DNA of 64,000 nt from Diospyros lotus (Eukaryota; Streptophyta; Magnoliopsida; Ericales; Ebenaceae), in NCBI RefSeq assembly GCF_014633365.1, contig NC_068349.1, positions 19,544,753 through 19,608,752 of the forward strand, given 5' to 3'. Positions 1 through 43,983 of the stretch are shown here, piece after piece. The translations under genes and the position numbers were made by a program. Numbering within the stretch: position 1 is the stretch's first letter; every line of letters begins with the position of its first letter. The notes under the pieces were generated by a model that saw only the letters and a program-made list of their open reading frames with translations, did no database searches and was not told where the DNA came from.

Positions 1-168
1 GTCATCCGATTGACTCTTTAAAATCTTCAATTACTAGGCAAATGTCAATTTTTTCATACCATCCTGACAATAGTACATAATGTGTATAATTATTTAATTT
101 AAACATTAATATAAGATAAAAATAAGGATATAATTCATTAAAATTTAGAAAAAATTAACTCCTCATCA
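1..168 (-). repeat. Start of the 3' LTR (window-truncated)
   Basis: Near-identical to 12715-12882. In the element's orientation it begins TGATGAGGAG immediately after the polypurine tract. The rest of the LTR lies before base 1. Confidence 0.9.
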
Positions 169-180
169 TACCCCCCACTT
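169..180 (-). other. Polypurine tract of the Athila-like element
   Basis: The minus strand reads AAGTGGGGGGTA directly against the TGATGAGG start of the 3' LTR. This is the expected plus-strand priming site for reverse transcription. Confidence 0.85.
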
Positions 181-1765
181 AAACATTGCTAGTCCTTTAG
201 CAATCAGACTATACACCTGCCAAGATTTATTCACAATAATCGTATGAATATAAAAATTTCAAATTCGAAACCGAAATACATAAAATCGAATAAGTAGTTT
301 GACATATAGTCGAACATTCTAAATCATATTTTTGGTTAAAGGTCATACAATCTCAGGAATGGCAATCAGGATGACCAACACACAAAGTTACTTCCTTGAA
401 GTTTTGACTTTAAACCTACTGTGGATTTTCCCTCTAATAAAAATGATTCTTCAGGTGTACACACAAGGGGGTGCACCATTATAAGAGTAAATACAAAACA
501 AGTTCAAACTCGGTGTCATCCCAAATATAAAGAATGTATTTTCATGGAAAAATAAGGAAATTGACATAGCTTCATGACTGGAATAATGCCCTAGATGAAT
601 AACTTCTGAATTTAAACAGAATTCCTTACTCCGAACTCAAATCCTGAGATCACATGATTTATAGCATCAAGAGGGACCAGACTAGGTTGTAATGGGGCTA
701 TGAAGTTAATACGGGTTATCAAATAAAAGGGTAAAGTGTGCAAAGGGTGTGTCGGGATATATATATATTTTTTTAACCTAGACATATTGTTTTCTTCAGT
801 ATTTATTTTGAAACACTAGTGCTGAATAACTAAGAGAACTTCCTATTTTTTTCTTCTTTTTTCTTTTTTTTTTTTTGCACTTTTTTTTATATATGAACAT
901 ACCGAGATATACTGATTACATCAGGTTTGGACAAACTTCATGCGGTTATGGTTTAGATGAGGGTAAGAAAAAAAATTGTGCTAAGAACTGATCAAATGGA
1001 CTAGCAAGGGAGGTTAATGTAAAGAAAGAAAAAGATTAATAGACCCAAATTGAAAGAAATTGATCCCCCTATCATGTTTCTACAAAACAATATTACTCAG
1101 TCAACTAATTCAGAGTTTGAAACCAGTCAAATTCATCCTCTATCATACCAGACATTCAAAGCGAATTGATGTTTTGAAGCTACTGAAAAGATGAGATAAA
1201 CAATAAAGCACATTTAGAGTAAGTGTTAATTTCACTCAGAATCAACAATTATTAGGTTCAAATACTCACTCGAGTAATAATCTCCACTTATGTTGAGGGA
1301 TCATGCAGTGTACTAATCAACTAATTACTGTTACCTTTGACTTTATGACCAATAACCAATTTCTAATTTTTGAATACCCGATGAATGTAAATTACCTGTT
1401 CTAATGCATATACGTTTTCAAGAAAAAGAAATTAATGCATTCATGTTTCATATTACAAACTTAACAGGCTATCAGTGTAAAACTACAAAGCTTTAGGGAT
1501 AGCATTATTTAAAACACAAAAAAAAAAATATTAATAAGAGTAGATAAAGATAACCAATTCACACAAAACTTCAAGCAAGCAATAGCAAATTTACAGTTAA
1601 ACATGAATCAAATAATTCATAACTAGTCCTTACTTACCCCAACTTGAATTGCAATAATAAAATATGATTGTTAGGAATATCTGTAACTCCACAAATCCAT
1701 AAATTTATTGTGAACTACTATAATTCAAATAAACAAATTAGCATATATTTTCACACCAAAATAAA
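181..1765. other. Non-coding 3' part of the Athila-like internal region
   Basis: AT-rich sequence between the polypurine tract and the LOG copy. It has homopolymer runs but no domain or long reading frame that I recognise on either strand. Confidence 0.6.
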
Positions 1766-1999
1766 AAAAAAAATTCATGCAAGTCATAAGATAAACAAAA
1801 TGCGTCTCAAGAGTACAAAAAATACTCCTTACTCAGTCATCTTATCATAGACTTGCCTAACAACATTCCACAGTTTTGTTTTTCTTTTTTTAAAGAACAC
1901 ACACAAAAAAAAAAATTTCATGCAAGTCATAAGATAAACAAATGCATCTCAAGAGTACAAAAAATACTCATTATTCAGTCATCTTATCATAGACTTGTC
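1766..1999. repeat. Tandem direct repeat, two copies about 143 bp apart
   Basis: 1766-1857 and 1909-1999 are nearly identical. Both contain TTCATGCAAGTCATAAGATA and end CTTATCATAGACTTG. A related core (GATGCGTCTCAAGAGT, then ACTCCTTACTCAGTC) recurs at 2980-3030. The copies therefore lie on both sides of the LOG sequence, and the second ends exactly at its stop codon. Confidence 0.85.
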
Positions 2000-2659
2000 T
2001 TACAGGCATAAATCTAAATTAATTGGACCCCTTTCGCGCTTGTTTCTAATTGCCTTAGACCAGTCTATTCGAGACTCATAAGGATCGTGTTGTAGAACAT
2101 AAGCGTGTAATTTTTCTAGCAACTCCTCAATGGTGGATGCAAAAATGAGAATCTTTCTTGCTGAAAGAGAAATGAACTTTTGGTCCATACCCTGATCAAG
2201 AAAAGAGAGCAACTCATTGAAAAAATAGTTAACATTTAAAAGTCCAATGGGTTTGGTATGGAGTTTTATCTTGACCCATGAGATTATACAAAAGATTTCT
2301 TCAAGTGTATTAAAACCTCCTGGTAAAGCAATGAAGGCGTCTAACTGATAAATCTTACAAGCCATGCGCTCAGATATAGAAATCCTTTCTATAAGTTGAC
2401 CGTGTGTAATCCCGAAAATGTGTGGATCAGGCAAAGGAATTGGCATTACACCTACCACATATGATTTTCCAAGATGTGCAGCTTGTGAAACACAACCATT
2501 CAATCCACGACTTCCCCCTCCATATACCAAATTAATTTTTCGCTCTCTCAATTTTAGGCTAAGTTCGCTTGTTGCAAGTGTGTAATAGCTATCGTTCCCG
2601 AGTTAAGAGCCACATAATATACATATGGTATTGATTCGACGAACTAACTGGCATTCCAT
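2000..2659 (-). pseudogene. LOG: LOG-like cytokinin riboside 5'-monophosphate phosphoribohydrolase, inside a retrotransposon
   Basis: LOG enzymes release active cytokinin free bases from cytokinin nucleotides in the cytosol. A frame opens at ATG 2659-2657 and runs 219 codons to the stop at 2002-2000, matching the family's usual 210-225 residues. It holds ICILCGS (codons 12-18), LVYGGGS (44-50), a conserved Arg (98), DAFIALPGG (107-115), TLEE (118-121) and KPIGLLNV. One in-frame TAA at codon 19 (plus 2605-2603) sits where family members have Ser in CGSS; the frame is otherwise open. The PGGxGTxxE signature reads PGGFNTLEE, so a normally invariant Gly is Asn. Plant LOG genes have several introns and this copy has none, which suggests capture from spliced RNA. 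It lies between integrase and the polypurine tract, in the same direction as pol. No poly(A) is seen. The start was chosen because homology extends back to it. Confidence 0.88.
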
Positions 2660-3106
2660 TTGTGTTTGTTATTTATGTGTACCCTAAAAAGAGGTTTAGC
2701 GATCAAAAGTAGCTATACAAGAATTCAACAAGAAATAAACACAAACAAAAATCATGTGTATATACAAGTAGTTGTGATTGTAGCTCACATCTTCCTCTGG
2801 TTTTACATCCAGAAACAGCTTAAACACCTTCTATGAAATGGGGATAGGCTTTCCATCAAATTTTCTTATAGATTGGCAAATAGGGTTATTTATAGTAAGA
2901 TTCCCAAGACTATAGCGTTGGTAATCACTTATGAACTGGGTTCATAAAGCAAGAAGTTCTCGTTGCACTATTCCACACGGATGCGTCTCAAGAGTCAATC
3001 AGATATCATCCAAAGACTCCTTACTCAGTCCATCCTTTATGAAACTAATTTTATCTTCTCGATTTATGGACACGAACCCCACAGATTTACATCGTGTGTT
3101 ACAAAT

Positions 3107-3370
3107 TCATCGAGCACATTTGTGACAACCTTTCACTCTTTTTGCTCTTCGTTTCTTCACAAAACTACTCTTTTCCAAGCCTGGAAAGTGCTTAAAATTA
3201 GGTGAAGTTTCGCTAGCTAATCGAACTTTTTCTTTGATCAACCAACAAATATCTTTAGGGATGTTATTACGCATCAACAACCTAAGTCTTTCACACCTAG
3301 TGGCATAATTTTTTTTCAAATCATTCTGTGCGAAAGGTGGATAGTACTTGCGAATTTTTGAGAGCTGAAT
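3107..3370 (-). pseudogene. Unrecognised basic reading frame upstream of the LOG copy
   Basis: The minus strand stays open for more than 85 codons, with protein-like composition. It contains IRKYYPPFAQNDL, RCERLRLLM, IPKDICWLIKEKVRLASE, then a Lys/Arg-rich patch KKRRAKRVKG and a closing CHKCAR. No ATG lies near the beginning and a T-run (plus 3371-3382) encodes poly-Lys, so the true start is unclear. I do not recognise the family. The position, upstream of LOG and downstream of integrase, is where Athila elements hold an env-like region. A remnant of that region or a second captured host fragment are both possible. Confidence 0.35.
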
Positions 3371-3867
3371 TTTTTTTTTTTTAAATAAAACACAACTATA
3401 GTAAAAAGAAAGTAAAGACCTATGAACTTTACAAAAGGGATGAGAGTACCTAATCAGAGAACAATAAAAATGAGAGAAGACTGTGTTTGCAGAAGTGTGA
3501 CTTGCCTTATATAGATACGGGGTCTCTTATAGGGCAGTGGAAGTCACTATTCCAATCACCACATTTCTCTTGAGGCATGCCATAATTGTACTGTCACGCC
3601 TAATGTCTATTTTTTCAACATTTGACAGTGTGCCTTTTTCTTTATAGGGCAGTGTGATTGCACTGCCTGAGAAAAATGGTTGCCACCAGCGTCAAGTCTG
3701 TCTCTCTCTTTTCTCTCTCATTTTTTTTATTATATTTTTTTTTATTTTTTTTAAAGGGACCCAATAAAATCACATATACCACACAAGACAATATTATCGA
3801 GTCAAACAAAATTATTTGCACAATTGATCAATTTCAAACACCAATGAATCAATTTCTAGGTATACCT

Positions 3868-3902
3868 TACCCCTCCACTTGAATTGCGCATTGTCCTCAA
3901 TC
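3868..3902 (-). other. Second polypurine-tract-like sequence
   Basis: The minus strand reads TTGAGGACAATGCGCAATTC followed by AAGTGGAGGGGTAA. This is the pattern found before the 3' LTR in Athila/Tat elements. It lies inside the larger element, next to but outside the solo LTR at 3932, so it is probably a scrap of another element. Confidence 0.5.
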
Positions 3903-3931
3903 GATAATAAAAAGGATAGAGGATAGGTATA

Positions 3932-5358
3932 TGTTCGCATATTCTTTCCCGCAAGTGAACGGAATCGTAACAAGTAATATAATGATGAATAGAGTATCGT
4001 TCCCACGAGGATTAGCTTTCAATCCTTACTTTAACCACTATTAGCTTTAATAAACCACACAATTAAAATAATACTCACTGCAAGTTTTATATTAACTAAA
4101 ACTAACTCACTAAATGAAAACACAAAATAATTCTTTAGATTTTTGAATGTAGAAATCTAATGTACTAGGGTTCATAAATCCACCGTAGTTCTTTAATTGG
4201 TTTAATCTTTTAGTGATCGGGTTTCATAATTCTTACTTTGAGATGAAAATCGATGATCCTAAGTTAATCAAAAGCCTCTCTCAATGGTCAATCGAATCTA
4301 TGCTTACATATGAGATTAATTATCTCAAATTAATCTGCAAATATACAAACATGCATTTATCCACAATGATCATCAAAATAGGATTTCACAAGGCATAACG
4401 GTATCTCTACCTATTATTGAACCTCATGTCATTTATTACCAAGTGTTAATCTATATTGAATCTCTCGAAAGCAATATAAATCACAAACACATTATAATGG
4501 CGGTCAAGCATCAAAACAGAATTAGTGCATAACAAACGATCAACTCGAAAGACAAGAATATAATAAAACCCAAATACTTTAAATTAAACCATCATTGAAC
4601 TAGGTTTCATCAATCACCCTAGCCACAAAGTACTTAGCCTAACATAGTTTCAACCAATGAAAGAATAATAAAAATAAAGTTCATGATGTTGGAGAGAAGA
4701 AAGAACGGAAAAATACAACCAAACCGAAGATCTTCAAGAATCCTAGACTTGCCGTCTTCTCCTCCTCAAAAAGCTCCTTAATCTCTTAAGAATCCTTCTT
4801 TTTATAATGGTTTTTAGGTTTTCAAAGTTGTGCCCCTTGAGAGAGCCCATCTCCACTTGATTTGAAAGGAAACGGGCTCCAAACGACCTTTTTATGAAGC
4901 TTAGAGCCTTACCGCAGCCTTACCACGGAATGCTTTCCGCGGTAAGGTTGTGAGCCACAAAACACTTCTTCAACCACGAGCTTACCACAGAATGCTTTCC
5001 GTGATAAGATCGTGAGCCACATAAAATAATTCTTACCACGACCCTACCACACAATGCTTTGCGTGACAACACCGTGAGCCGTTTCTCTTTGATTTCCAAC
5101 ACTTCACTGATGACATCATTCTTCCAGTGCTTTGTGACATCATCATCCTCGACCCTGAATGTACCTTTGACCTTGCCTTTATTGCCATTTTAGCTCCAAA
5201 AATGCGACATCATCATCACTTTGTGCTCCAATTGTCTTCAACACATGCTCTACATCTACATAACCATATATTGAACCAAATCAAGTAGAAATCATGCTCA
5301 TTGAATGTATAAATGCTAAGTTTATAGATCAAAATAAGTGTATAAAAGACACTTATCA
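3932..5358 (-). mobile_element. Solo LTR nested in the Athila-like element
   Basis: In the minus direction it starts TGATAAGTGTCTTTTATAC and ends GCGAACA after a CTCGTGGGAACGATACTC segment typical of the 3' part of Tat-type LTRs. It is flanked by GTATA (3927-3931) and GCATA (5359-5363), a 5-bp duplication with one mismatch. No primer site or internal sequence follows. Length is 1427 bp. Confidence 0.75.
4911..5083. repeat. Three palindromic repeats of about 60 bp inside the solo LTR
   Basis: Three units share CTTACCACGGAATGCTTTCC, then GCGGTAAG and GTGAGCC. The first half pairs with the second (CTTACC...GGTAAG), so each unit can form a hairpin. The third unit is the most decayed. Confidence 0.75.
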
Positions 5359-5543
5359 GCATACCTAGCGGTCTTCAATGCATGACGTCGTATGCAAAAA
5401 TTTTGTTTAGACTGCACATAGAGAAGCACTATTTGAGTCAAAGTCAATTAAGTAATGTAGAAAAGGAATAATTTTATTTTATATATTTTTAATTTTTTTT
5501 ATTTTTATTATATATTTATTTTTTATTATATATATATAATTGA

Positions 5544-6570
5544 TCACTCCCTTTTGTCTGGATCAGCGAGATCCATATATTCCTCCTCTCCAATCAACAT
5601 CTCTAGATAGGGCTTCAACCGATGCCCATTGACTTTCAAAATTTGTCTTGACTGAAGGTTTTCTATTTCACATACCCTGTGATTTGAGATAGAGCAGACC
5701 TTGAAAGGTTTTGTCCATCTGGACTTAAGTTTTCCAAGGAATATGTGGAGTTTTGAATCATAAAGAAGCACATGTTGCCCGACTTGCAAAATTTTTCGGT
5801 TAATGTGCTGCTCATGTAACTTTTTCATGTGGAGTTTGGACATTTTAGCATTTTTGAATGCTTCATTTCTTATCTCCTCAAGCTCAATCATTTGAAGTTT
5901 TCTATTGAGACCTGCTTCAGTGAAATTTTCATTGATTTGGTGGATGACCCAATAGGCTTTGTGTTCTATTTCCACAGGTAAGTGACACGGCTTTCCAAAG
6001 ATGATCCTATAGGGAGACATACCTAGAGTGGTTTTATATGCAGTTCAGTATACCCAAAGAGTATCAACTAACCTAAGGGACCAATCCTTCCGGTTGGAGT
6101 TGAAAGTCTTTTCTAAGATGCATTTGATTTCTCTATTGGCTAACTCTGCTTGACCATTGGTCTAGGGATGATACGAGGTTGACAGCTTATGAGTTACCCC
6201 ATATTTCTTCATTAATTTTGCTACGAGCTTGTTGCAAAAATGAAAACCACAATCACTAATTATTGCTCGTGGCATCCCAAAATGACTGAAAATATTTTCT
6301 TTCAAAAACTTTACTACAGTCTTATGGTCATTAGTTCAAGTTGGTATGGCCTCTACCTATTTGGACACATAATCGTCAGCAAACAGAATGTATTCGTGTC
6401 CAAACGAATTGACAAACGACCCCATGAAATCCATACCCCAATAGTCAAAATTTTCAAGTATGCAGATGGGGTGCAAAGGCATCATGTTTCTCTTGTAAGA
6501 CTTCCTAGCCTTTGACATCGGTCACAAGAAGAGCAAAATTGATGCACATCCTTAAAAAGTGTAGGCCAAT
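5544..6570 (-). pseudogene. Integrase domain of the Athila-like polyprotein
   Basis: This joins element cDNA to host DNA. The first intact stretch (6020-5544) covers the end of the catalytic core and the C-terminal domain, from [20 protein letters not shown] to HRLKPYLE. Upstream, after removing stops, the catalytic triad context is still readable: WGMDF, then IISD, then [11 protein letters not shown]. At least three in-frame stops interrupt the core. It is immediately followed by the extra region that holds the nested solo LTR and LOG. Confidence 0.88.
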
Positions 6571-6775
6571 AAAATCCACTTTGCAAGATTTTTGCAATTG
6601 TTTTCTTAGTGGAAAAATAACCTCCACATGCTAGGGTGTGACAAAAATTCATGACACTTTGTTGTTCATGCTCAGGGATGCATCTTCTAAGTATTTGATC
6701 AGCACAATACTTGAAGAGGTAGGGCTCATCCCAAAAGAAAGTTCTAACTTTTCTGAAGAATTTCTACCTATCTAG

Positions 6776-7483
6776 CTAAATCCAGTGGTCTGGGATCAGA
6801 CCAGTTGCCAGGTAGTTCACAATGTCGGCATATAAAGGGATAACAAACAATGCAAAAATATCATTCACTTCAAATAGTTGCTTATTGGGGAAATTGTCAT
6901 GGATTGGTTCATCAAATTGAGTAAGATCTTGACCTAGAATCCTTGACAGATGATCAGCCACCACATTCTCTACTTTCTTCTTGTCTCTGATTTCAATGTT
7001 GAACTCTTGCAGGAGTAAGACCCATCAAATGAGACGCGACTTGGCGTCTTGCTTGGTAATGTGGTATTTTAATGTGGCGTGATCAATGTAAACTATGACC
7101 AATGATCCCACCAAATATGATTTGAATTTATCCAGGGAAAAGACTACAACTAACAATTCATTTTCAGTGGTGGTGTACTTTTTTTGAGCCTCATTGAGAG
7201 TTTTGTTGGCATAGTAAATGACATATGGTCTTTTATCCTTTCTTTTCCCTAACATTGCTCCCACTACAAAGTCACTAGCATCACACATCAATTCAAACGG
7301 TAGGGACCAATCAAGTGATTGAATGATGGGTGCGGTAACAAGTGCATTCTTTAGTTTCTCAAAGGCATTCTGGCAATCTGATGTCCATTCAAATGGAACA
7401 TCCTTAGATAGCAAATAGCATAGAGGTCTTGCCATGGTGCTGAATGAAGCAATGAATCGCCGATAGAACCTGACGTGACCCAA
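6776..7483 (-). pseudogene. RNase H domain of the Athila-like polyprotein
   Basis: This degrades the RNA of the RNA-DNA hybrid. FLGHVRFYRRFI opens the RT-RNase H connection. CDASDFVVGAMLG and YTTTENELLVVV mark the RNase H fold with its catalytic Asp and Glu, and YIDHATLKY follows. VADHLSRI (around 6960) marks the end. It is open for about 150 codons in 7483-7025, then a stop before the tail. Confidence 0.88.
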
Positions 7484-7654
7484 GAAAGATCAGACGTCTT
7501 TAACATTTTGAGGGGTAGGCAATTTTTTTATAGCTTTCACTTTAGTTTCATCTACCTCTAATCCCCTTGATGAAACAATGTGCCCTAACATAATGTTTTG
7601 AGTGACCATAAAATGACATTTTTCCCAGTTGAGCACTAAGTGGGTCTCCTCACA

Positions 7655-8404
7655 TCATTTCAACACTTTCTCTAAATTTTCTAGACAAGTTTTAAAACTG
7701 TTCCTATAGACTGAGAAATCATCCATGAAGACTTCTAACACTCTTTCAACCATTTCACTGAATATACTCATCATGCACCGCTGAAAAGTGGCGAGTGCAT
7801 TGCATAAGCCAAAGGGCATGCGTGTGTATGAAAATGTCCCAAATGGGCATGTGAATGTGGTTTTCTCTTGGTCTTCAAGTTCAATTTCTATTTGGTTGTA
7901 TCCAAAGTATCTATCCAAGAAACAGTAGTAAGCTTGTCCTGTAATTTATTCCAAAACTTGATCCATAAAAGGTAATGGAAAATGATATTTTCTTGTCAGA
8001 GAATTAAGCTTTCTATAATCAATGCATATACGCCATCTTGTCTGGATGCGCATGGGAATCAGTTCATTGTTCTCATTTTTTATAACAGTGACTTCAAATC
8101 TTTTTGGTACTACCTGTGTCGGGCGAACCCATTTAGAATCAAATATAGGGTAGATGATGCCAACATCTAAGAGTTTCAACACCTCCCCCCTAACCACTTC
8201 CTTCATGTTTGGGTTTAACCTTCTCTGCATCTGTTTCATAGGCTTTGCATCATCTTCCAAAAAAATTCTGTGGGTGCAAATTAAGGGACTAATGCCATGC
8301 AGGTCCGATATAGTACAACCTAAAACTTTCTTATCTGCCTTTAACTGATTCAACAATTGCTCCTCCTGTTGAGGATTTAGACTTGATGAGATCACCACTG
8401 GCAA
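7655..8404 (-). pseudogene. Reverse transcriptase domain of the Athila-like polyprotein
   Basis: This copies the element RNA into DNA. Motifs are in order: HRIFLEDDAKP, WRICIDYRKLNSLTRK, DRYFGYNQIEIELEDQEKTT, CPFGTFSYTRMPFGLCNA, and the catalytic box VFMDDFSVY. FMDD is normal for this lineage. The frame shifts near 7918-7946 between the second and third motifs, and a stop follows the catalytic box near 7655. Confidence 0.92.
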
Positions 8405-8583
8405 TGATTCTTTTTCACCTAGGAATGCATACTTAAGGTTGTTTGGAAATGGTTTCCTTTCAAGTGTGGGTGAGCAACTTGATAATGGCAGAGGTTTACT
8501 TGGTGAAGATCCGAGATGTTCTGGTTTTGGGTTATCGTAGGCTATGGATAAGATAGATTAAGTTTTCTCTCGAGATAATCTTG

Positions 8584-9276
8584 CTACTCCACAAATTCCT
8601 CCAACTCGAAATTTTTCTGAGCAAATTCACACTTAATGTACTCCTCACTCAGTGTCTGTATCAAGTTAGCTTCTTCAGTCTCGTTCTCCATGTCAGGTTG
8701 TTTGGAAACCCTAAAAATATTTATTTCCAAAGTCATGTTTCCAAATGAAAATTCCAAGATTGCATTCCTATAGTTGATGATGACATTTGATGTGGCAAGG
8801 AATGGTCGACCTAAGATGACTGGCACATGAGGTTAAGGACCCTAATGCGGCTGGGTGTCCAAAATGATGAAGTCCATTGGAAAGTAGAACTTATTGATTT
8901 GCACTAAAACATCATCCACAATTCCTCGTGGAATTTTAACTGATCAATCAGCCAGTTGTAGGGTCATTCTAGTGGGTTTGAGCTCACCTAATCCCAACTG
9001 TTGATACACACTGTATGGAAAAAAATTGACACTAACTCCTAAATCCAAGGGTGCCCGATCAACCTTTTGACTTCCTATGATGCATGTAATGGTTGGGCAG
9101 TCTGGGTCTTTGTATTTGGGAGGAGTTTTCAATTGAAGAATGGTGCTGACTTGTTCGGTTAGGAACGTCTTTTCATGCATATTTATTTTTCTTTTGACAG
9201 TGTACAGATCTTTCAAAAATTTTGCATATGAAGGTGTTTGTTTAATTGCATCCAACAGCGAGATGTTAATTCTCAC
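8584..9276 (-). pseudogene. Retropepsin-type protease region of the Athila-like polyprotein
   Basis: The upstream part has CIIGSQKVDRAPLDLGVSVN. DLG is the active-site triad, with the usual D(L/T)GA altered to DLGV. LGLGELKPTRMTLQLAD follows. Downstream is PVILGRPFLATSNVIINY, the second conserved protease box. The two halves are separated by stops between 8826 and 8944. Confidence 0.85.
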
Positions 9277-9474
9277 TTAGTTGAATACTTCATATATGTC
9301 CGCATTTTGTTGATCCTTCTTTGCACTGATCAGTCTTTGAGGGCAATGAGGTTTAGGCTTAAATTGAGATCCTTCTACCACATTTTTGCCTCTGTCCTCA
9401 TTTTTGCTTGGTTCTTGCTCTTCCTCCAAGGTTGTTTTGATAACCGAATCACTGTGATCGGCTATTTCTTCTTC

Positions 9475-11103
9475 TTACACAATAGGATGTGACATCCTAA
9501 GGTCTTCAGGTTTCTCAATTATTTTTCCACTCATCAAGACAGTTACTGCTTGCACTTGCTCATAACTTTTATTTTCATTAGATGAGGCTTCTACCAGATG
9601 GGTTTGACCTATGAGATTCGGATTGAGTTGGGAAGGAAATTGTCTAGGTTCTCTTACACTCAATGTCTGGGTCAGTTTGGTCAATTGGCTTCTAATGTCT
9701 TCCATGGCTCTATTGGTTTGTTCTTGAAATTTGGCCACTTGTGCATTTGTTCCCATTTGGTCTTGCATGAATTGATTGAGGGTGTCTTCTAAGGATCTCC
9801 TATGAGGAGGTTAGTATGTGTTGGTTGTAGACCCCTGATTAGCTTAAAATTATGGAGGTTGTGAAGGGAATGGCGGATGGGCTGCAGAATCATTTCTCCA
9901 TGAGAAGTTAGGATGATGACGAAGGTTGGGATGATAAGAATTGAAGTTCGTATGGTGACCTTCAGAATGAAAATTCCCCCCTTGATTCTGGTTTGAATAT
10001 TGCCTTCTTTCATTGTTATGTGAGTGTGTGTTTCCAATTTGACCATACAATACCTCATTAAAAACAGGTAATGTAGGACAATCCTCTTTCTTGTGGTTTG
10101 AAGTCTCACACACGGCACACCTAACCTCAATTTCATTAACAGTCTGGGCTTTCTTTATCTCTAAAGTTTCAATCTTCCGGGTTAACGCAGCTAATTTGGC
10201 ATTCAAATCATCACTCTCATTCAGCTGATGTTTACTCTTGGGCTATTTATAGTCTCTTGAATCATTGGTTGATAGTGGCTGAACCTCCCAATTTCTAGTA
10301 TTTTCTACTAAAGTGTCAAAGAACTGAAACGCCTCATTAGGCGATTTGTCAAAGAATTCCCCATTGCACATGGTTGACACTATCATCTTAAGATTAGGGG
10401 CCAAAGCATCATGGAAGAAGCTAACCACTCTCTACTGCTCAAAAGCGTGATGTGGACAGGCATTAAGAAGGTCCTTGAATCGTTCCCATGCTTGGGCAAA
10501 ATTTTCATTAGGTTTGCAGGAAAAATTCATCATTTGCCTTTAGAGATTTGCGGTTCTATTTGTTGGAAAGTATTTTTTCAAGAACATGGTTTGCATTTCT
10601 CTTCATGTTCCAATAGATCAATACGCAAGCGTGTTTAATCACATCTTTGCCTTATCTTTTAATGAGAATGGAAAAATTTTTAATCTAACCACATCCTCAT
10701 TGACAGTCTGTTCCATACAGGTTCCACAAACTTCCTCAAACTCCTTCATGTGAATGTAAGGATTTTCAGAATCCATCTCATGAAAAGTGGGCAACAGTTG
10801 GATAGTGCCAGGTTTAAGATTGAATCTATCATGATTAACCGGAAGCTCTATGCAAGAGGGTGTAGTTTGCTTAGGAGGGTGGAGATATTCCCTGAGAAGC
10901 CTGCATGTATCAAGTTCAAAAGAATCTTGATCACCATAATCACTCCCAAGTATAGGTGGCATGTTATTAGGTGCAGGTGGCATGTTCTCATTGTGTTGAG
11001 ACATGAGTGATTGTGTCAGTGATAGTTCAGTGATAGATAGAGAGTTAATAGGGCCATATAACGGATTTTGATATTCTACAATCCTACTTGACCTAAGTAT
11101 CAT
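9475..11103 (-). pseudogene. Gag of the Athila-like element
   Basis: The structural protein of the particle, in four broken pieces. The N-terminal piece (11103-10639) has LREYLHPPKQTTPSCIELP, FNLKPGTIQLLPTFH, ENPYIHMKEFEEVC and VVRLKIFPFSLKDKAK, typical of plant Athila/Tat Gag. 10428-10243 continues with NEAFQFFDTLVENTRNW. 10206-9850 has a CX2CX4HX4C zinc knuckle (CAVCETSNHKKEDC). 9768-9475 is a QAx/QMGT-type linker. Stops separate all pieces. Confidence 0.9.
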
Positions 11104-11211
11104 ACACCATGCACAAACAAAAATAAAGTTAAAAAAAAAAAAAAAGAGTTACCGGATTTATTAGGAGATGCTTATTATTATTTTTTTTCTTTTTATTTTT
11201 ACCTTAATCTT

Positions 11212-11227
11212 CCCGGCAACGGCGCCA
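11212..11227 (-). other. Primer-binding site, tRNA-Asp type
   Basis: The minus strand reads TGGCGCCGTTGCCGGG, complementary to the 3' end of plant tRNA-Asp(GTC) including CCA. It lies five bases inside the 5' LTR boundary. Confidence 0.9.
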
Positions 11228-11232
11228 AAATT

Positions 11233-12882
11233 TGATTGCACTCTCACCCTGCAATTAAAACACAACAAAATTTATATTAGATTTTTTTTTTATTTTGGTG
11301 AGAGGTTTATACTCGCTAGTGTACGAGTACAGTTGTAGTCCAAATTTAATTTATTTTCTAGATGAGTCTATGTCGTCCACTGAAAGATTTATTTATGACA
11401 AAAGAAAAAGAATGTCACGCACACACACACGCATCTGGATGAATTGGCAACGTGATTTTTTTGTGGATTTTCAGATAATGGATGTTAGGAAATAAAACAA
11501 GGCAAAAATTAAAATAGACACTAAATGTGAGAATATAGAATTGAATAACACTTAAGTTAAGACAATTTCAGCACCAACCCACTGACCCCCAATTTTTAGC
11601 AGAAAAGATTAGCAACATTAATTTAATTTCAGATATGAGGGTCTGCTATTAAATGCAATTAGAGATGATGATAGTTCTAGTTTAAGCAATCCCCATACAT
11701 GATATGCGGGATTCTAGTTTAAGCAACTACCATAAATCTGATTACAATTAATACACAAAACAACTAAATTAATCATCCGAATTTGGGTATGATAGCGTTT
11801 CCAGTTCTAGTAACTCTCATACGTGGTATGAAAGCTCTAAGTTAGACTTACGCTCCAATTCAAACCTAGTGATTTCTTAATAATTAATACACACTCATAT
11901 TGAAATTTAAATTAATGTCACTCATTTAAAGCGTAACTTTCTTTGGGAATCATTGGCATTGGATACTGTTATTACCTTAACCCAAGATTGGATTTAACCG
12001 GCCATAGTCAGACAATAACATAAAATAAAACTTTAGAAGCAAACTATCTACACCGCTTAAAATAAGAGGAATAGAAAGTATAAATTAACCGGCCATACTC
12101 AGGTGGTGGATAATAAAGAGACGAAAATTAAAATTACAAAAATTAAATGACATAAATTAAATAGCAGAAATTAACAGGCCATAATCAGGCGGTGGATAAT
12201 AAAGATGATAGAAAAATAATATAACGCAACTATATAGAAACTAAAGTTGAAAGATTGAAAGAGAAATTTTAAGAACACAACTATGCTTTGATTCAAGAAT
12301 GATAGATTTTGCAAGTGCAATTAAGTGAGTTATTTATAGCCCACAAGATGCAATACAAATCACACAATTTAAATTATACAACTAGACATAATTATATCTA
12401 ATGGGCACTCACAAAACATTCACCTAACTAGTGGAAGGAAATTAGCTAAGAGACACACCTAAAGTTAAATGGATTTTAGCTAAAAGATACACCTAAAGTT
12501 AAATGGATTTTAGTTAAAAGACACACCTAAAAAAAACACTCATAAAACATATATTTAAAAATAAAAATAAAAATAGATTTTCAGAAGTTGGGTTTTTAAT
12601 CTTCTTTATGTTGGATTTGAGTATTTCTTGTGATTAAAATGCTTGGGTCTTCCTTGTGTTAGACTCCATTTAATAGTTGACCCAATTGCACTTGAATTTG
12701 AATAGTAATGTTGGCTATCCGATTGACTCTTTAAAATCTTCAATTACTCGACAAATGTCAATTTCTTCATACCATCCTAACAATAGTACATAATGTATAT
12801 AATTATTTAATTTAAACATTAATATAAGATAAAAATAGGGATATATATTTATTAAGATTTAGAAAAAATTAACTCCTCATCA
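11233..12882 (-). repeat. 5' LTR of the Athila-like element
   Basis: In element orientation it starts TGATGAGGAG and ends TGCAATCA, next to the primer-binding site. Length is 1650 bp. The end at 12715-12882 matches 1-168. It has AT-rich content with internal near-repeats (ATGGATTTTAG and AACCGGCCATA segments). Confidence 0.88.
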
Positions 12883-12887
12883 AGTGG

Positions 12888-13325
12888 ATAAGACAAGAAG
12901 ACATAACTGTTAAGCTTGAGATATGGAAGGACATTTTAGAATCTAAAGGTTTTAAGTTTAGCAAATTGAAAACCAAATATATGGAATGTAAGTTTAGTAA
13001 AAATATTGGTGTGAATGTGTAATGATAAAACTAGAAGATCAAGTCAAACTAAGAAAAGATCAGTTCAAATATGTAGATCAATCATCTAAAAAGATAAGAA
13101 AATTAATGAGGATGTTACTGAAAGAATCAAGGCAGGATGGTTAAAACGAAAAAATGCATCCAGCATTTTATTTGATAGTAACATTCCATTAAAACTAAAA
13201 GAAAATTTGTATAAAGATATAAGATCAACTTGTTGTATCACAAAAAAATATTGGACAATAAAGCAGCAACATGTACAAAATATAAGCATAACAGAGACAT
13301 GGATGTTAAGATGTATGTGCCTTGT
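12888..13325 (+). pseudogene. LINE (L1-type) reverse transcriptase C-terminal fragment, part 1
   Basis: Three-frame reading on the plus strand recovers the plant LINE RT tail: [30 protein letters not shown], then a degenerate IKAGWLKRKNAS-type segment, IPLKLKENLYKDI, and QQHVQNISITETWMLRCMC. Several stops and frame changes are present. The upstream part of the LINE would lie left of the Athila-like insertion, outside the window. Part 2 resumes at 15987 after a solo LTR. Confidence 0.8.
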
Positions 13326-20459: not shown

Positions 20460-21902
20460 TCATCCACCCCCAGTGCGCTGTTTTCCTTCTCTCCGGGATG
20501 GTGTCCAACTTCGCTCTCGGAAGTGATCCCGAGTGGGAGACCTCCTATTATCTGACTTGGACTCAACTCTACCCGAACTCATGCCTTCTTGGTCAACGAA
20601 ATCTTGGAGGTAACCCCGGTTGATAAGCTCCCGAATCTCTTCTTTTAACTGGATGCAATCCTCTGTAACATGACCATGGTCGCGATGAAAACGACAATAT
20701 TTCCTTTTACTTCGAGTGTTGGGTGGAGACCTCAACGGTGGAGGACGTCGCAGATAATCCTTATCCTCCAATGCCAGTAAAATCTCTGCTCGACTGGCGT
20801 TGAGGGGAGTGTAACTCACCGGGCTTCCCCATGCACCCCCAAAACCCGAGCGATCTGAAGCTCGGGAGGGGCGGTAGTCCGTCTTCTGTTCCACCATCGG
20901 CCTTTTCTTCTCCTTCTCTCTTTCCTTCTTATCAAGCTGTTCAGCCCTCTTCACCTTCATCACCTCTTCCGCATTGATGTACTTATTAGCCCGTGTAAGG
21001 GCTTCTGTGAAAGTACGAGGTGGAGTCTTAGCCAAGGACTGAGCGAATGGTCCAGCCCTCAAGCCATTCTGGAGAGCCACCATGGCGATCCGTTGATCAA
21101 ACTCGTCAATGCTCAACGCCTCCTCATTGAACCTAGCCACGAAATCCCTTAGGGATTCACCCTGATTTTGCTTGATGTTCACCAGAGCCATGGAAGACTT
21201 CCGGTGGCGCTTCAAGGGAGCGTAATGGGCTAGGAAAAAAGTCTTCAGCTCTTCCCAGCTATTGATGGAACGATGGGGAAGGCAGGAGTACTAGGTCCGG
21301 GCATGTCCTCCTAAAGTAGCCGAAAATGCCCGGCACCACATCGCGTCCGACCCCGATTACACCAGCATGTGAGAGGAGAAAAGCTCGACGTGATCATAGG
21401 GATCTGTGCTTCCATCATAGAGCTTGATGGAGGGGATACGAAACCCTTCCAGTGGAACCTCCGCCATGATGCCCTTACTCAAGGGTTGGTTAAAGCCGAG
21501 GTGGAGCAACTCTTCCTTTCCCTTCTTGAGTTCCTGGACTTGCTTCTCTAGGAAACGCAATCGCCTCTCCTGCGAAGTCCCTCTTTCTCGCGAGGGGGCA
21601 GAAGTGGATCATGCCGCCTCGGAAGAGTGGATTTCTTGGCCCGTCTGGCGGGATTGACGAGGCTCTCGAGCAAGAGGAGGTGACTGATGCTCCGCTCGCT
21701 GAGAGGGCAGATGCAAACGATGTTGTTCAGCCTGGTGTAGATAACCAGTCAACAACTCAGTAAGTTGTTGGACCTGGTTTTCCAACCTGGTGAGTCGGTC
21801 CTCCGGCATTGGATTGGCTGGAGGTGGTGGATTTTCCCCTTGCTGCGAGGCCTCTAGATTGGCTCCGACCTGGCTACGAGTCACGTCTCTTCGGGGAGCC
21901 AT
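20460..21902 (-). pseudogene. Gag of the Tat-like derivative
   Basis: The structural protein of the virus-like particle. The start at 21902 gives MAPRRDVTRSQ and a short coiled coil (DRLTRLENQVQQLTELL). 21560-21357 has IPSIKLYDGSTDPYDHVELF, the conserved plant Gag entry. 21215-20460 (251 codons) has ALVNIKQNQGESLRDFVARF, LQNGLRAGPFAQSL and a degenerate zinc finger (CRFHRDHGHVTEDCIQLKEEI). Stops or frameshifts separate the three pieces (around 21600 and 21215-21357). It is the first gene after the primer site. Confidence 0.92.
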
Positions 21903-27993: not shown

Positions 27994-28065
27994 TGCGTTT
28001 GCCGGGAGTCGAACCCGGGTCTATTGCTTGGAAGGCAATTATCCTAACCGTTGGACTACAAACGC
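27994..28065 (-). tRNA. trnG-UCC: tRNA-Gly (anticodon TCC)
   Basis: 72 bases, nuclear type. The acceptor stem GCGTTTG pairs with CAAACGC. The anticodon arm is TTGCCTTCCAAGCAA with TCC in the loop. The T arm is GGGTTCGACTCCC. The A box is TAGTCCAACGG and the B box GGTTCGACTCC. A pol III terminator (TTTTT on the minus strand, plus 27984-27988) follows within 10 bases. No intron is present. It is the only locus here that looks fully functional. CCA is not encoded, as expected for a nuclear gene. The trnG-UCC name is only descriptive. Confidence 0.95.
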
Positions 28066-39924: not shown

Positions 39925-41650
39925 TATTCAACAACATATATAATTTGGCAGCTTCAAACTCTTTCCCATTCATCCACCTGATTTTTATTGCTCCCACAAC
40001 ACGACCTGGATAATTGAAAACAGAAATTTGTAGATATGAAGAATCTTCCTCATCATTATTTCGAGGGACTCTCATCATTTTTTATGGAACATTTGGTGCA
40101 AAATAATATGAACCAAATATAGACGTCTCCTCAATTAAATATACCTTACATATAGATCATTTTACACGAGCTTTATTGCGAACCTTCTTCTTTAAAGTGT
40201 TGAGGAACCTAAATCATTCGAAGATCTCCTCAATATAGGAAAATTTTATTTTCTTTAAAAATAAACAATTCAAATTATATCAAACATACTGTTTAAAGGG
40301 ATACATCCATCTGTATTGTACTGGTCCATCCACCTTTGCTTTGTAAACTAAGTGTATTTGGAGATGTTCCATTGGGTTAAACCATCCCGAAGGAAATTCA
40401 AGCTCTAATTTGCATAAAATGATGGGTATGTTTTGTTTCATGATATCTAGGTGTTCAAGGCTCAATATTGTTTGAGAAAATGTCTTTGAAAATTGACATA
40501 ACTCAATGACCAGATTTCAAATTCGATCTGGTAATGCTACAAATGCCATTAGAAGTAATTGCTCCATGAAAACATGACAATCATGACTTTTCAATCCAAA
40601 TAACTTTGTGTTTCTCATATCAACGCATTTACCCAATCTGGAAGCATATCCATCAGGGAGTTTAAGTTCTTTTATCCATGTTAAAACACTTAACTTTTGT
40701 TCCTTTGTGAACGTGTATTGGGCCTTGGTTTTCCAATACTTACCACCGCCACGGTCTATTAGTTTAAGTTCTTTCAGCCTACAATATTCTTTAAGATTCA
40801 TTTTAGCCTTGGTATTATCTTTACTTTTACCCTTCAAATCCATTATTGTATTGAAAAGGTTGTCAAAACATTTTTCTCAATATACATGACATTTAAGTTG
40901 TGTCGGATCATATTATCTGTCCAGTATGGCAATTCCCAAAAAATGCTCTGTTTCGTCCAATTGTGCTCCACACTATACCCAAACATCGCACAGTCTTATA
41001 GCTGTAAGATAAATGAAAAATTACAAACTCTTTGAAAAACGTTATCTCTTGTTAATCGTGGTGGTAGAGAAGAATTCTCAACTCTATTTTTTTTAAATGC
41101 ACTCCTATTTCTCCGAAGGGCATGATCCATTAGCAATAATTGCCTGTGACAGTAAAAAAATGATGTCTTTCCATCATACTTGAGGTTGAAAACTTTAGTT
41201 TTCTCCATACAATATGGACATGCTAATCTACCAGATGTCATCCAATCAGATAACATTCCATATGTAGGAAAATCATTGACAGTCTATAATAGAGCAGCAT
41301 TCATCAAAAAATTATTCTTTGTTGATATATCATAAGTCAGAACACCTTCGTACCACAACAATTTAAGTTCATTAATTAGAGGCTCTAAAAACACATTTAT
41401 TTTGTTTTTCGGATTTGATGGACCTGGAATAATAGCAGTTAGAAAAAGAAACTCTCTTTTCAAACACAATACAGGAGGAAAGTTATATGACGTCACAATG
41501 ACCGGCCAACAAGAATACGGGCGACCCGATTTACCATATGGAGTGGACCCATCTGCAAAAAGACCAAGCCTCACATTTCTAGGATCGGTGGAGAAGTTAG
41601 GATATTTCTTATCAAAATGTTTCCATGCTTCCTCGTCTGACGGGTGAGAC

Positions 41651-43983
41651 TGTGACAACCCAGAATTTCTTGAATCTTTATTTACACCTAGATAATAACT
41701 CAATCGCATGGGCTGAAAATTTGCCCCATTATTATACAACAACGAAAGCAAATTAAATATAAATATAAATCCCAGAGGCATTTCCATACTCAATAAAACA
41801 TCAATTAGTCAAATATCGCATATACATAATTAGATCCCCTGATCACAACTCACACCCCAAAGATCTTTTCAATTGGGATTGCCCTGTACACACATAATCC
41901 AAAGAAAAGAATAATAATCGCCATAGCAATCCTCCCCGAACACCATTCTTCTCAACTTGAAATAATGGTAAAACAAAGTGAGCCACAAGGCTCAGTAAGC
42001 ATAACAGAAGAAATATGGTACGGTTGGGAATAAATCTCTCATACTAAATATCACACATCAAATGTCGTGATGGAAATCAAAGTGCCATACCATGCCATGT
42101 ATTACAACATGCAACCATCAACACAAATAAATAAACCAATGCACACAATGGCAGTCCTTGGGGCCTACATAAGAAATGCACAACTTGGCACCCAAGTCCT
42201 CATACAAACTTACCGCAGCCATGGATTGGCTAACACACACCATATGGGCCTGAAGCCCGAGTATAAGTCATATGAGCCCAAGGCCCTGGCTAGCAAAGAT
42301 AGATGAGCCCACGGTCCTGGCTAGTAAATATATATGAGCCCACAGCCTTAGCTAGCAAAGATATATGAGCTCACGGCCCTGGCTAGCATAAATAAATGAG
42401 CCCGAGGCCCTGGCTAGCATAAATATACAATATCGTAACCATGCAATGCAACAAGTAATAAATGCAATGGCTTATGCAGCATTAACATGATGACAAGGCC
42501 CCCATAAACCAAGCATCAGGCTATACTACGCCCACGTAGGAATTCACACAAGAGAATGCTCTAAGTGCATATGCTCGCCTAACATACACAAGTCAACACT
42601 TAGTAGGCCAATTGTGTCATGCCAATACACACACCCCCAACACATACAAGCATGATCCCCAATGAATGCAAGCCCAATCCTATGCAATATGTCACATAAT
42701 GGCACAGCCAGTCGACAGTGACTAGGCATCAGTCGACAATCTATGACTAAGGATCAACCAGTCAACAACCATCCTAGGTCCGATCGACGATTTGCTCCCG
42801 TGTCACAAAATGGTCATCACGTCACCTAACCGGTCAACAGCTCATGCCTCCATTTATTAAGACTCCTACTCATGGGAAACCATAACCACAACCAAATCCC
42901 GCCAATCCTCTATGAACCTAGCCCTGGATTAGGTTCGACATCATTCTCAATAAACTAGGGGCGTCACAATACCCCGTAGGCACACAACAAATAAAACCCT
43001 AACGAGTCTCATATTTAATTTAAATTAATTTATGCTAATAAAATCCTTGATTCGTATAATTAATACGTGAAATTGAATCGAATTAAGGAGCGCACAAAGG
43101 AAGTAAGATGTGGGATTCATAAAATGGAAGGAGCTCACAAAGGAAGTAAGAAACTTGCCTCTATTTAGCAGATTTAAGCATTTTTACACTCGCACGTCAC
43201 CAAATTAATACACGCTGTAAAATAATATAACTCCCAAAATTAACCAAATTGCACCCAAAATTAAATTTAAACCGTATGGGATTATTAATACATATTTCCC
43301 TACTTATTGACCAATTAAATCTCGATTAAATCATATTTAATCTTGAATTTCCCCTAAATTTTGTGGCTTCTGCGCGCCCTTCTTCCTCTTTTATTTGCTC
43401 ACTACTCACTGCCCAAAATAAACCCCGAATCTTGCTAAAATTGGGGGTTAAAATGGAAAAAAGAAGGCTGCTCAGCGCGCGCTGCGTGGCAGCCAAGGGC
43501 TGTCCACCACCTTGCCCAAAACAACGCCGTTTTGGGCAAGGAATGGCTAGAAAATTCCAGCCAAAATCTTCCCTCGTGCACGCACCTGCAGGCTTGAACC
43601 CGCTTCACCCCTTGGTCCCTCACACGTGCGACCGCCCGCGCTACACGCTGCCTTCAACCAATATATGCTTCAAGTTAATTTTAAGGTGATTCTAGCACAT
43701 TTCCATTTGCATTTAGACCCCATCAATTTTGGAAATTATCATATGCACCCCACTTATTAATAACACTCATACCCTGAATTCTCAACAATTAATTACCCAT
43801 TTCTCTAATACCAAAATAAATTAATATTTCCTTTAAACTGACAAAGATTTAATAATCACCTTATACGCAATAATTAATAATTATCAACTATTCACTAAAT
43901 TATTCAATTCCAATAAATCAAAAATCACTTCAAATGCATAATTTAATAATTATTAACTACTCCCAAATTATCGGGATGTTACA
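41651..43983 (-). mobile_element. Solo LTR, 2.3 kb, TSD GAGAC
   Basis: Plus-strand ends are TGTGACAACCC and CGGGATGTTACA, so in family orientation it reads TGTAACATCCCG...GGGTTGTCACA. Perfect GAGAC at 41646-41650 and 43984-43988. It interrupts TNP2 just before SDEEAW. Segments such as CCTGATGCTTGGTTTATGGG are shared with 45304-47896. A run of tandem-like GAGCCC(A/G)AGGCCCTGGCTAGCA units (about 37 bp) lies at 42265-42420. Confidence 0.93.

Follow-up and report, generated by a model that had tools for sequence, protein, structure and literature searches.

Why does an LTR retrotransposon of Diospyros lotus carry a frame of the cytokinin-activating LOG family, and does this frame serve the element or only travel with it? 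Transposons are mostly seen as passive users of the germ line that are silenced by the host. The frame lies at 2000-2659 on the minus strand of the stretch of DNA that was analysed (64,000 nt, AT-rich with 36% G+C, hereafter the window). An initial annotation described it as an intronless LOG copy between pol and the polypurine tract (PPT), in the sense of pol, within an LTR retrotransposon. This is borne out by the LTRs, the primer binding site (PBS) and the PPT, each of which was found. The element runs from right to left as 5' LTR, PBS, interrupted gag/pol, extra region, PPT and 3' LTR, with the parts given here; numbers starting with L are loci, and groups A and B are copies from elsewhere in the genome with and without pol, respectively.

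about 11233-12882, minus strand: 5' LTR (LTR comparison; left limit set by eye at the PBS)
11211-11230, minus strand: PBS region, TTTTGGCGCCGTTGCCGGGA on the minus strand (by sequence; L045, L046 and L048 have this site or one almost identical to it)
9475-11148, minus strand: gag-region frames, interrupted (part match to group A and group B copies)
7946-9276, minus strand: reverse transcriptase N-terminal and protease-region frames of pol, interrupted (76-88% identity to group A copies, two stretches)
7025-7489, minus strand: RNase H frame of pol (PF17919, E 5.1e-30)
5544-6044, minus strand: integrase C-terminal frame of pol (69-70% identity to the integrase frame of group A copies)
2831-3376, minus strand: NABP-like gene, related to Viral_NABP and Carla_C4, with three in-frame stops (limits from alignment to the intact ORF of L048)
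2000-2659, minus strand: LOG-family gene of the cytokinin riboside 5'-monophosphate phosphoribohydrolase type, broken (Pfam, structure matches, alignment)
169-184, minus strand: PPT, GTTTAAGTGGGGGGTA on the minus strand (counterpart TTTAAGTTGGGGGGTA in L045-L048)
1-168, minus strand: start of the 3' LTR, which continues past the left edge of the window (L075); diverged, partly alignable

The landmarks that had been claimed for the LOG frame (CGS, LVYGGGS, DAFIALPGG, TLEE and KPIGLLNV) are present, but on the minus strand. Its open part (2000-2602, 200 aa) matches Pfam PF03641 with E 5.9e-26 and 91.6 bits against a cut-off of 27, and comparison of the frame with plant LOG-type structures yields 2a33 (E 3.7e-42, 148 bits) and 1ydh (E 4.3e-37, 132 bits). 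At such scores the matches are not chance. The frame has an in-frame TAA at 2603-2605, directly after CGS, and its PGGxGT motif reads PGGFNT, so the window LOG is a pseudogene; it shares 89% DNA identity with the intact LOG of young copy L048. Given the stop, the broken PGGxGT and the decayed pol, the window copy is, judged from its sequence, unable to encode a full LOG and dead. It is also old, since its 3' and 5' LTRs show 84% identity, counting gaps, over 764 alignable bases.

A segment of about 1.4 kb at about 3932-5365 of the window (minus strand), starting with TGATAAGTG, is absent from twelve 10-kb stretches of other copies described below and looks like a solo LTR or a nested insertion. 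The sole Rfam match on 1-13000 is plant snoR71 at 10442-10541 on the plus strand (40.2 bits against a cut-off of 40), which lies inside the gag region of the element and may be chance. Elsewhere the window contains a second gypsy-like gag frame (20460-21290, minus strand; Retrotrans_gag E 9e-13), a tRNA-Gly (tcc) gene (27994-28065, minus strand) and a CACTA-type transposase fragment (41284-41808, minus strand; Transposase_21 E 6.6e-46).

Just upstream of the window LOG, at about 2831-3376 on the same strand, lies a second gene that was absent from the initial annotation. The stops of both genes were kept as stops and the pieces between them searched separately. The shorter NABP pieces reached E 0.0014 and 0.0022 against Pfam, and the frame at 3107-3526 gave a weak match to Carla_C4 (carlavirus nucleic-acid-binding protein) with E 0.01, all below the cut-off. 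The intact gene is found in L048 as a single open frame of 181 aa (L048 4949-5491) that matches PF05515 (Viral_NABP; E 1.4e-8, 35.4 bits against a cut-off of 23) as well as PF01623 (E 3e-4, 21.1 bits against 20.9). A search of 5.8 billion proteins identified 527 relatives, with Populus, Orobanche, Xanthoceras, Acer and Rhamnella named among the best 120; PF05515 was matched by 44 and PF01623 by 43 of the 48 relatives scanned. What had been described as the capture of a lone LOG is hence one of two paired genes, LOG coming second after a gene of betaflexivirus type.

The likeness to the NABP or cysteine-rich proteins of betaflexiviruses (PF05515, PF01623) consists of the profile match above the cut-off together with a basic stretch and a Cys cluster; the element protein differs in being carried by an LTR retrotransposon. 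Its cysteines are spaced C-x2-C-x4-C-x3-C, and the spacing in viral NABPs is longer. The AlphaFold model is weak (mean pLDDT 65.7), and Foldseek comparison of this model with viral proteins gave 38 matches, none below E 0.001; the ten best of these non-significant matches comprise eight proteins named RNA silencing suppressor, the 15kDa protein of cherry mottle leaf virus and one nameless protein. The viruses behind these best matches are presumably betaflexiviruses. A profile search of the PDB with NABP returned no match. Taken together, the L048-type gene appears to be of the betaflexivirus NABP type, with nucleic-acid binding and silencing suppression as predicted functions. A viral example is p12 of chrysanthemum virus B, described as activating transcription in the nucleus and suppressing silencing in the cytoplasm (PMC7588395).

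The Diospyros lotus genome (630 Mb in 43 contigs) was searched for the family. A DNA search with the window LOG gave 893 candidates, the best 40 of which were scored. P0002, a protein that bears the annotation Diospyros lotus LOGL10, served as the query of a protein search that gave 1128 LOG candidates; among the best 150, 141 are stop-free and 14 match P0002 at full score and identity. With a third query 1058 candidates were obtained, 148 of the best 150 being stop-free and about 50 places (counted by eye) lying beyond those of the P0002 search. Since only top-ranking copies were scored, these figures overstate how many copies are intact. Twelve stretches of 10 kb all show NABP, LOG, a 1.8-kb tail and LTR sequence, always in that order. 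Pol lies upstream in seven of them (group A) and is absent from five (group B, L044-L048), which have only gag-like sequence there. Over the part examined, the group A pol is open in one frame in L040, L041, L042 and L049, open in two overlapping frames in L039, and interrupted in L043 and L050. In L043 pol segments 1-982 and 1650-2628 form a direct repeat with 95% identity, hence its broken pol; NABP and LOG are open there. Among every sixth copy of ranks 31-145 of the P0002 search, a sample of 20 copies including three that had been examined before, ten have an integrase, eight are of the pol-less B type and two are neither.

In group B, LOG is open in all five copies and NABP in four. The LOG of L048 matches PF03641 with 114.7 bits (cut-off 27) and has PGGxGTxxE and the catalytic Arg and Glu, which we take to be the signature of LOG phosphoribohydrolases. 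The LTR pairs, of about 1.8 kb, are 100% identical in L048, 99.9% in L046, 99.7% in L047 and 99.4% in L045, all of them group B copies. L047 has its near-identical LTR pair and a PPT; TSD and element end are readable only in L045 (CATGG), L046 (GCATT) and L048 (GTTTT), which combine LTR pairs, 5-bp TSDs, PBS and PPT as LTR retrotransposons do, the paired LTRs of which have TG..CA ends. Stops among L009-L050, six of which are the same copy twice, occur only in L035 (in LOG) and L044 (in NABP). L001-L008, the eight loci closest to the window copy in DNA sequence (L001 is that copy), have at least one stop in each gene, the NABP alignment of L004 being partial. Thus, although the window copy is dead, the family still has intact, recently mobile and young members. 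The earlier suggestion that a mobile element could spread LOG if other copies were intact can be put more firmly: other copies are intact and young, and LOG is spread by the element. Some copies lie 11.8-13.4 kb or 7.3-7.4 kb apart (C7:5468165-5493955, C11:16479278-16494645 and C10:29875577-29883534); these are probably tandem arrays with common LTRs.

A copy search and a dN/dS comparison had been proposed in the initial annotation for elements with the order LTR-PBS-gag-pol-LOG-PPT-LTR. In group A LOG and LTR sequence follow pol, and pol is lacking in group B. Group A copy L039 and group B copy L048 differ at 17 of 1206 sites in NABP and LOG (1.4%) and at 99 of 1798 (5.5%) in the non-coding tail (Fisher p 1.6e-9). 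The 17 changes are nine synonymous and eight nonsynonymous, which corresponds to a dN/dS of about 0.25 (p 0.005). For both genes jointly, nine copy pairs gave dN/dS values of 0.25-0.54, and 17 single-gene comparisons gave 0.12 to 0.96; these are few pairs of non-independent copies, under a simple site model that ignores transition bias. The highest joint value comes from comparing L048 with the window copy, in keeping with the latter being dead. The synonymous divergence between A and B (0.03-0.04) is itself below the 5.5% of the tail, and the low divergence of NABP-LOG could also result from exchange of this part between the two groups. Because of this possible exchange and the simple model the evidence for constraint is good, not final; it points to protein-level constraint on both NABP and LOG. 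In an alignment of 29 LOG rows, R98, E121 and G117 are present in at least 90% of the rows, R98 and E121 presumably being the catalytic residues. Twenty-five of these rows (two of them Diospyros genome copies) end in LxLxL, mostly after a basic patch, which we regard as a possible EAR repression motif; the LOG proteins without this end are host-type P0105 as well as P0006, P0036 and P0042.

The pair is not confined to Diospyros. In three predicted proteins of Orobanche gracilis an NABP part precedes part of LOG, on account of which we reject a recent single capture. When 39 contigs with LOG and 43 contigs with NABP matches were compared, three identical sizes above 2 kb (8723, 4511 and 2128) were found, which are probably the same contigs; common sizes among the shorter contigs may be chance. 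The identities of paired NABP and LOG proteins covary (r 0.76 over ten non-independent comparisons from five lineages, the Populus pair being assumed), and in a quick LOG tree the Diospyros copies group together on a long branch, nested within a wider set of similar plant proteins. The pair thus occurs, by these predictions, in Orobanche and probably in other eudicots, so that the capture looks old. Given the pair in Orobanche and relatives of both proteins in several eudicot families, the event seems neither recent nor local. That a spliced LOG mRNA was captured is plausible. The host donor LOG was not found in the Diospyros genome, where element copies swamp the matches of a host-type LOG query.

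We favour, and give an even chance to, the explanation that the window element is a decayed copy from a Ty3/gypsy family with an NABP-LOG accessory module that would dampen silencing and raise active cytokinin. The module is placed between pol and the 3' LTR, NABP first and LOG second, and its genes might be expressed through splicing or from an internal promoter. NABP would act as its betaflexivirus relatives do, either weakening the small-RNA silencing of the element or altering host transcription, and LOG would free active cytokinin, by which the cell would stay dividing or meristem-like. More cells of the germ lineage would then carry active copies; with silencing reduced and more cells dividing, more of these copies would be passed on. 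Through its LxLxL tail the element LOG may also be tied to transcriptional repression in the host. Where pol has been lost its products can be borrowed, and the fact that the module is kept in such copies suggests that it favours the element that carries it. A bolder form of this explanation is possible, and we put it forward tentatively: an old plant LTR lineage would possess a host-manipulation cassette, composed of a virus-type silencing suppressor or transcription factor and a hormone-activating enzyme, under sufficient selection in cis to survive the loss of reverse transcriptase. Such a lineage would be virus-like without particles or spread, countering silencing and driving the host cell towards division.

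A purely nuclear role of the pair, in which the LOG enzyme is irrelevant, seems unlikely to us. The basic patch and the EAR-like tail would, for instance, recruit TOPLESS-type co-repressors and NABP would be their DNA-binding partner, in agreement with the LxLxL end in most LOG rows, its absence from P0105, P0006, P0036 and P0042, and the activity of viral p12 as a nuclear transcriptional activator (PMC7588395). However, most rows also keep R98, E121 and PGGxGT, which a purely structural role would not need.

It is rather improbable that the module is a passive passenger, with a host LOG and a viral-type gene transduced once, copied unused and intact only because the copies are young. Most intact copies that were scored are indeed near-identical and young, the older ones examined are broken, and exchange between A and B could mimic constraint. 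Yet in the comparison of A with B the two genes diverge less than the tail, at the low dN/dS given above, and NABP has a mean column identity of 72% over 24 rows, Populus, Orobanche, Xanthoceras, Rhamnella and Acer among them (67% over 48 rows). Also against a passenger, the module is kept in elements without pol and is paired in Orobanche too.

Even less can be said for an RNA virus that carried both NABP and LOG and was endogenised in the element. The betaflexivirus type of NABP would fit this very improbable origin, but LOG is plant-like, the organism-named LOG relatives among the best 120 are plant proteins, two scans of viral contigs with NABP found no relative, and the open-licence literature yielded no paper that combines carlavirus with lysine decarboxylase. 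The link of NABP with these viruses does raise the question whether plant RNA viruses gained NABP from retroelements or the reverse. An artefact has practically no chance of being the explanation, whether as an erroneous join in the assembly or as a host LOG next to an element whose other members lack LOG. Nothing was found in its favour, and the NABP-LOG order recurs in the twelve stretches, on several chromosomes and with LTR pairs and TSDs, which rules it out.

We turn back to the class of the family with an accessory module. In L039 the domains follow the order RVT_1, RT_RNaseH, Integrase_H2C2 and rve, which is the reverse transcriptase-RNase H-integrase order of Ty3/gypsy. About 108 residues separate RNase H from H2C2 in this copy, without a match to a second RNase H, the mark of Tat, among profiles that include none for aRH. 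The Athila ORF-1 domain, itself found in just 16% of Athila elements (PMC6317226) and so missing from most, had no match among the gag frames that were scanned. Great length and extra ORFs between pol and the 3' LTR are shared with Athila and other OTA Gypsy elements as described in that paper; in the Diospyros family, at most a candidate member of Athila, the extra ORFs are a pair of recognisable genes.

The initial annotation knew of no described LOG-carrying family. A YgdH (LOG-family) domain is nevertheless in print for Gypsy consensus sequences of two Citrus species and, when no filter is applied, of Populus trichocarpa (PMC9289625 section 12), a result that is placed there in line with Steinbauerova et al. 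2011. A LOG-family domain in plant Gypsy elements is therefore not new, and the Diospyros elements resemble those of Citrus and Populus in this respect. That section consists of one passage on a domain screen, in which NABP, a module of two genes, elements without pol, constraint and Diospyros do not come up, and the words Carla and NABP are absent from the main text of the paper. Among the open-licence papers examined we found no report that ties an NABP-LOG pair to retrotransposons; nor do they describe the partner gene NABP, elements without pol, constraint on the pair or the scale of the family in Diospyros. Gypsy elements of Phalaenopsis likewise have an extra enzyme ORF, of m6A demethylase type (PMC9289625); this enzyme is one of RNA modification, is found in that account in Phalaenopsis only, and is described without mention of an NABP-type partner gene. 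Plant LOG phosphoribohydrolases, for instance Arabidopsis At2g37210 and At5g11950 (PDB 2a33 and 1ydh), belong to the same fold family as the window frame. The element LOG differs from them in being intronless and in its C-terminal basic patch and LxLxL tail, and has 48-52% identity to host-type P0105.

If the favoured explanation is correct, a family that has recently spread in the genome of a fruit tree would be a case of a transposon altering the state of its host cell. With both the cytokinin activator and the viral-type suppressor encoded by intact genes, the family makes it possible to test directly for effects on cytokinin and small RNAs and for a part in the transposon burst. There is also a practical side, since the public gene annotation Diospyros lotus LOGL10 (P0002) has the same protein sequence as retrotransposon copies. 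Frames of the element can thus be annotated as host LOG genes, by which counts of the LOG family in such genomes may be inflated and expression studies distorted.

The module region has a further feature, a repeat CTGAGTAAGGAGT..ACTCTTGAGACGCAT that is present within the NABP gene and, in shortened form, behind LOG. In the window it takes the following positions.

2978-3040, minus strand: hairpin-forming repeat (ACTGAGTAAGGAGT..ACTCTTGAGACGCAT) inside the NABP gene (repeat comparison, folding)
1940-2004, minus strand: second, shorter copy of the repeat, directly behind LOG (repeat comparison, folding)
1798-1862, minus strand: third copy of the repeat, behind LOG (repeat comparison, folding)

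The counterparts in L048 are found at 5297-5344, 6344-6380 and 6504-6540. NABP could have a binding site here, or the repeat could act as a decoy of its own gene. All six copies that were folded form hairpins, with modest z-scores of -1.1 to -2.6, and the number of perfect matches to the motif is exactly three in 30 of the 42 loci L009-L050.
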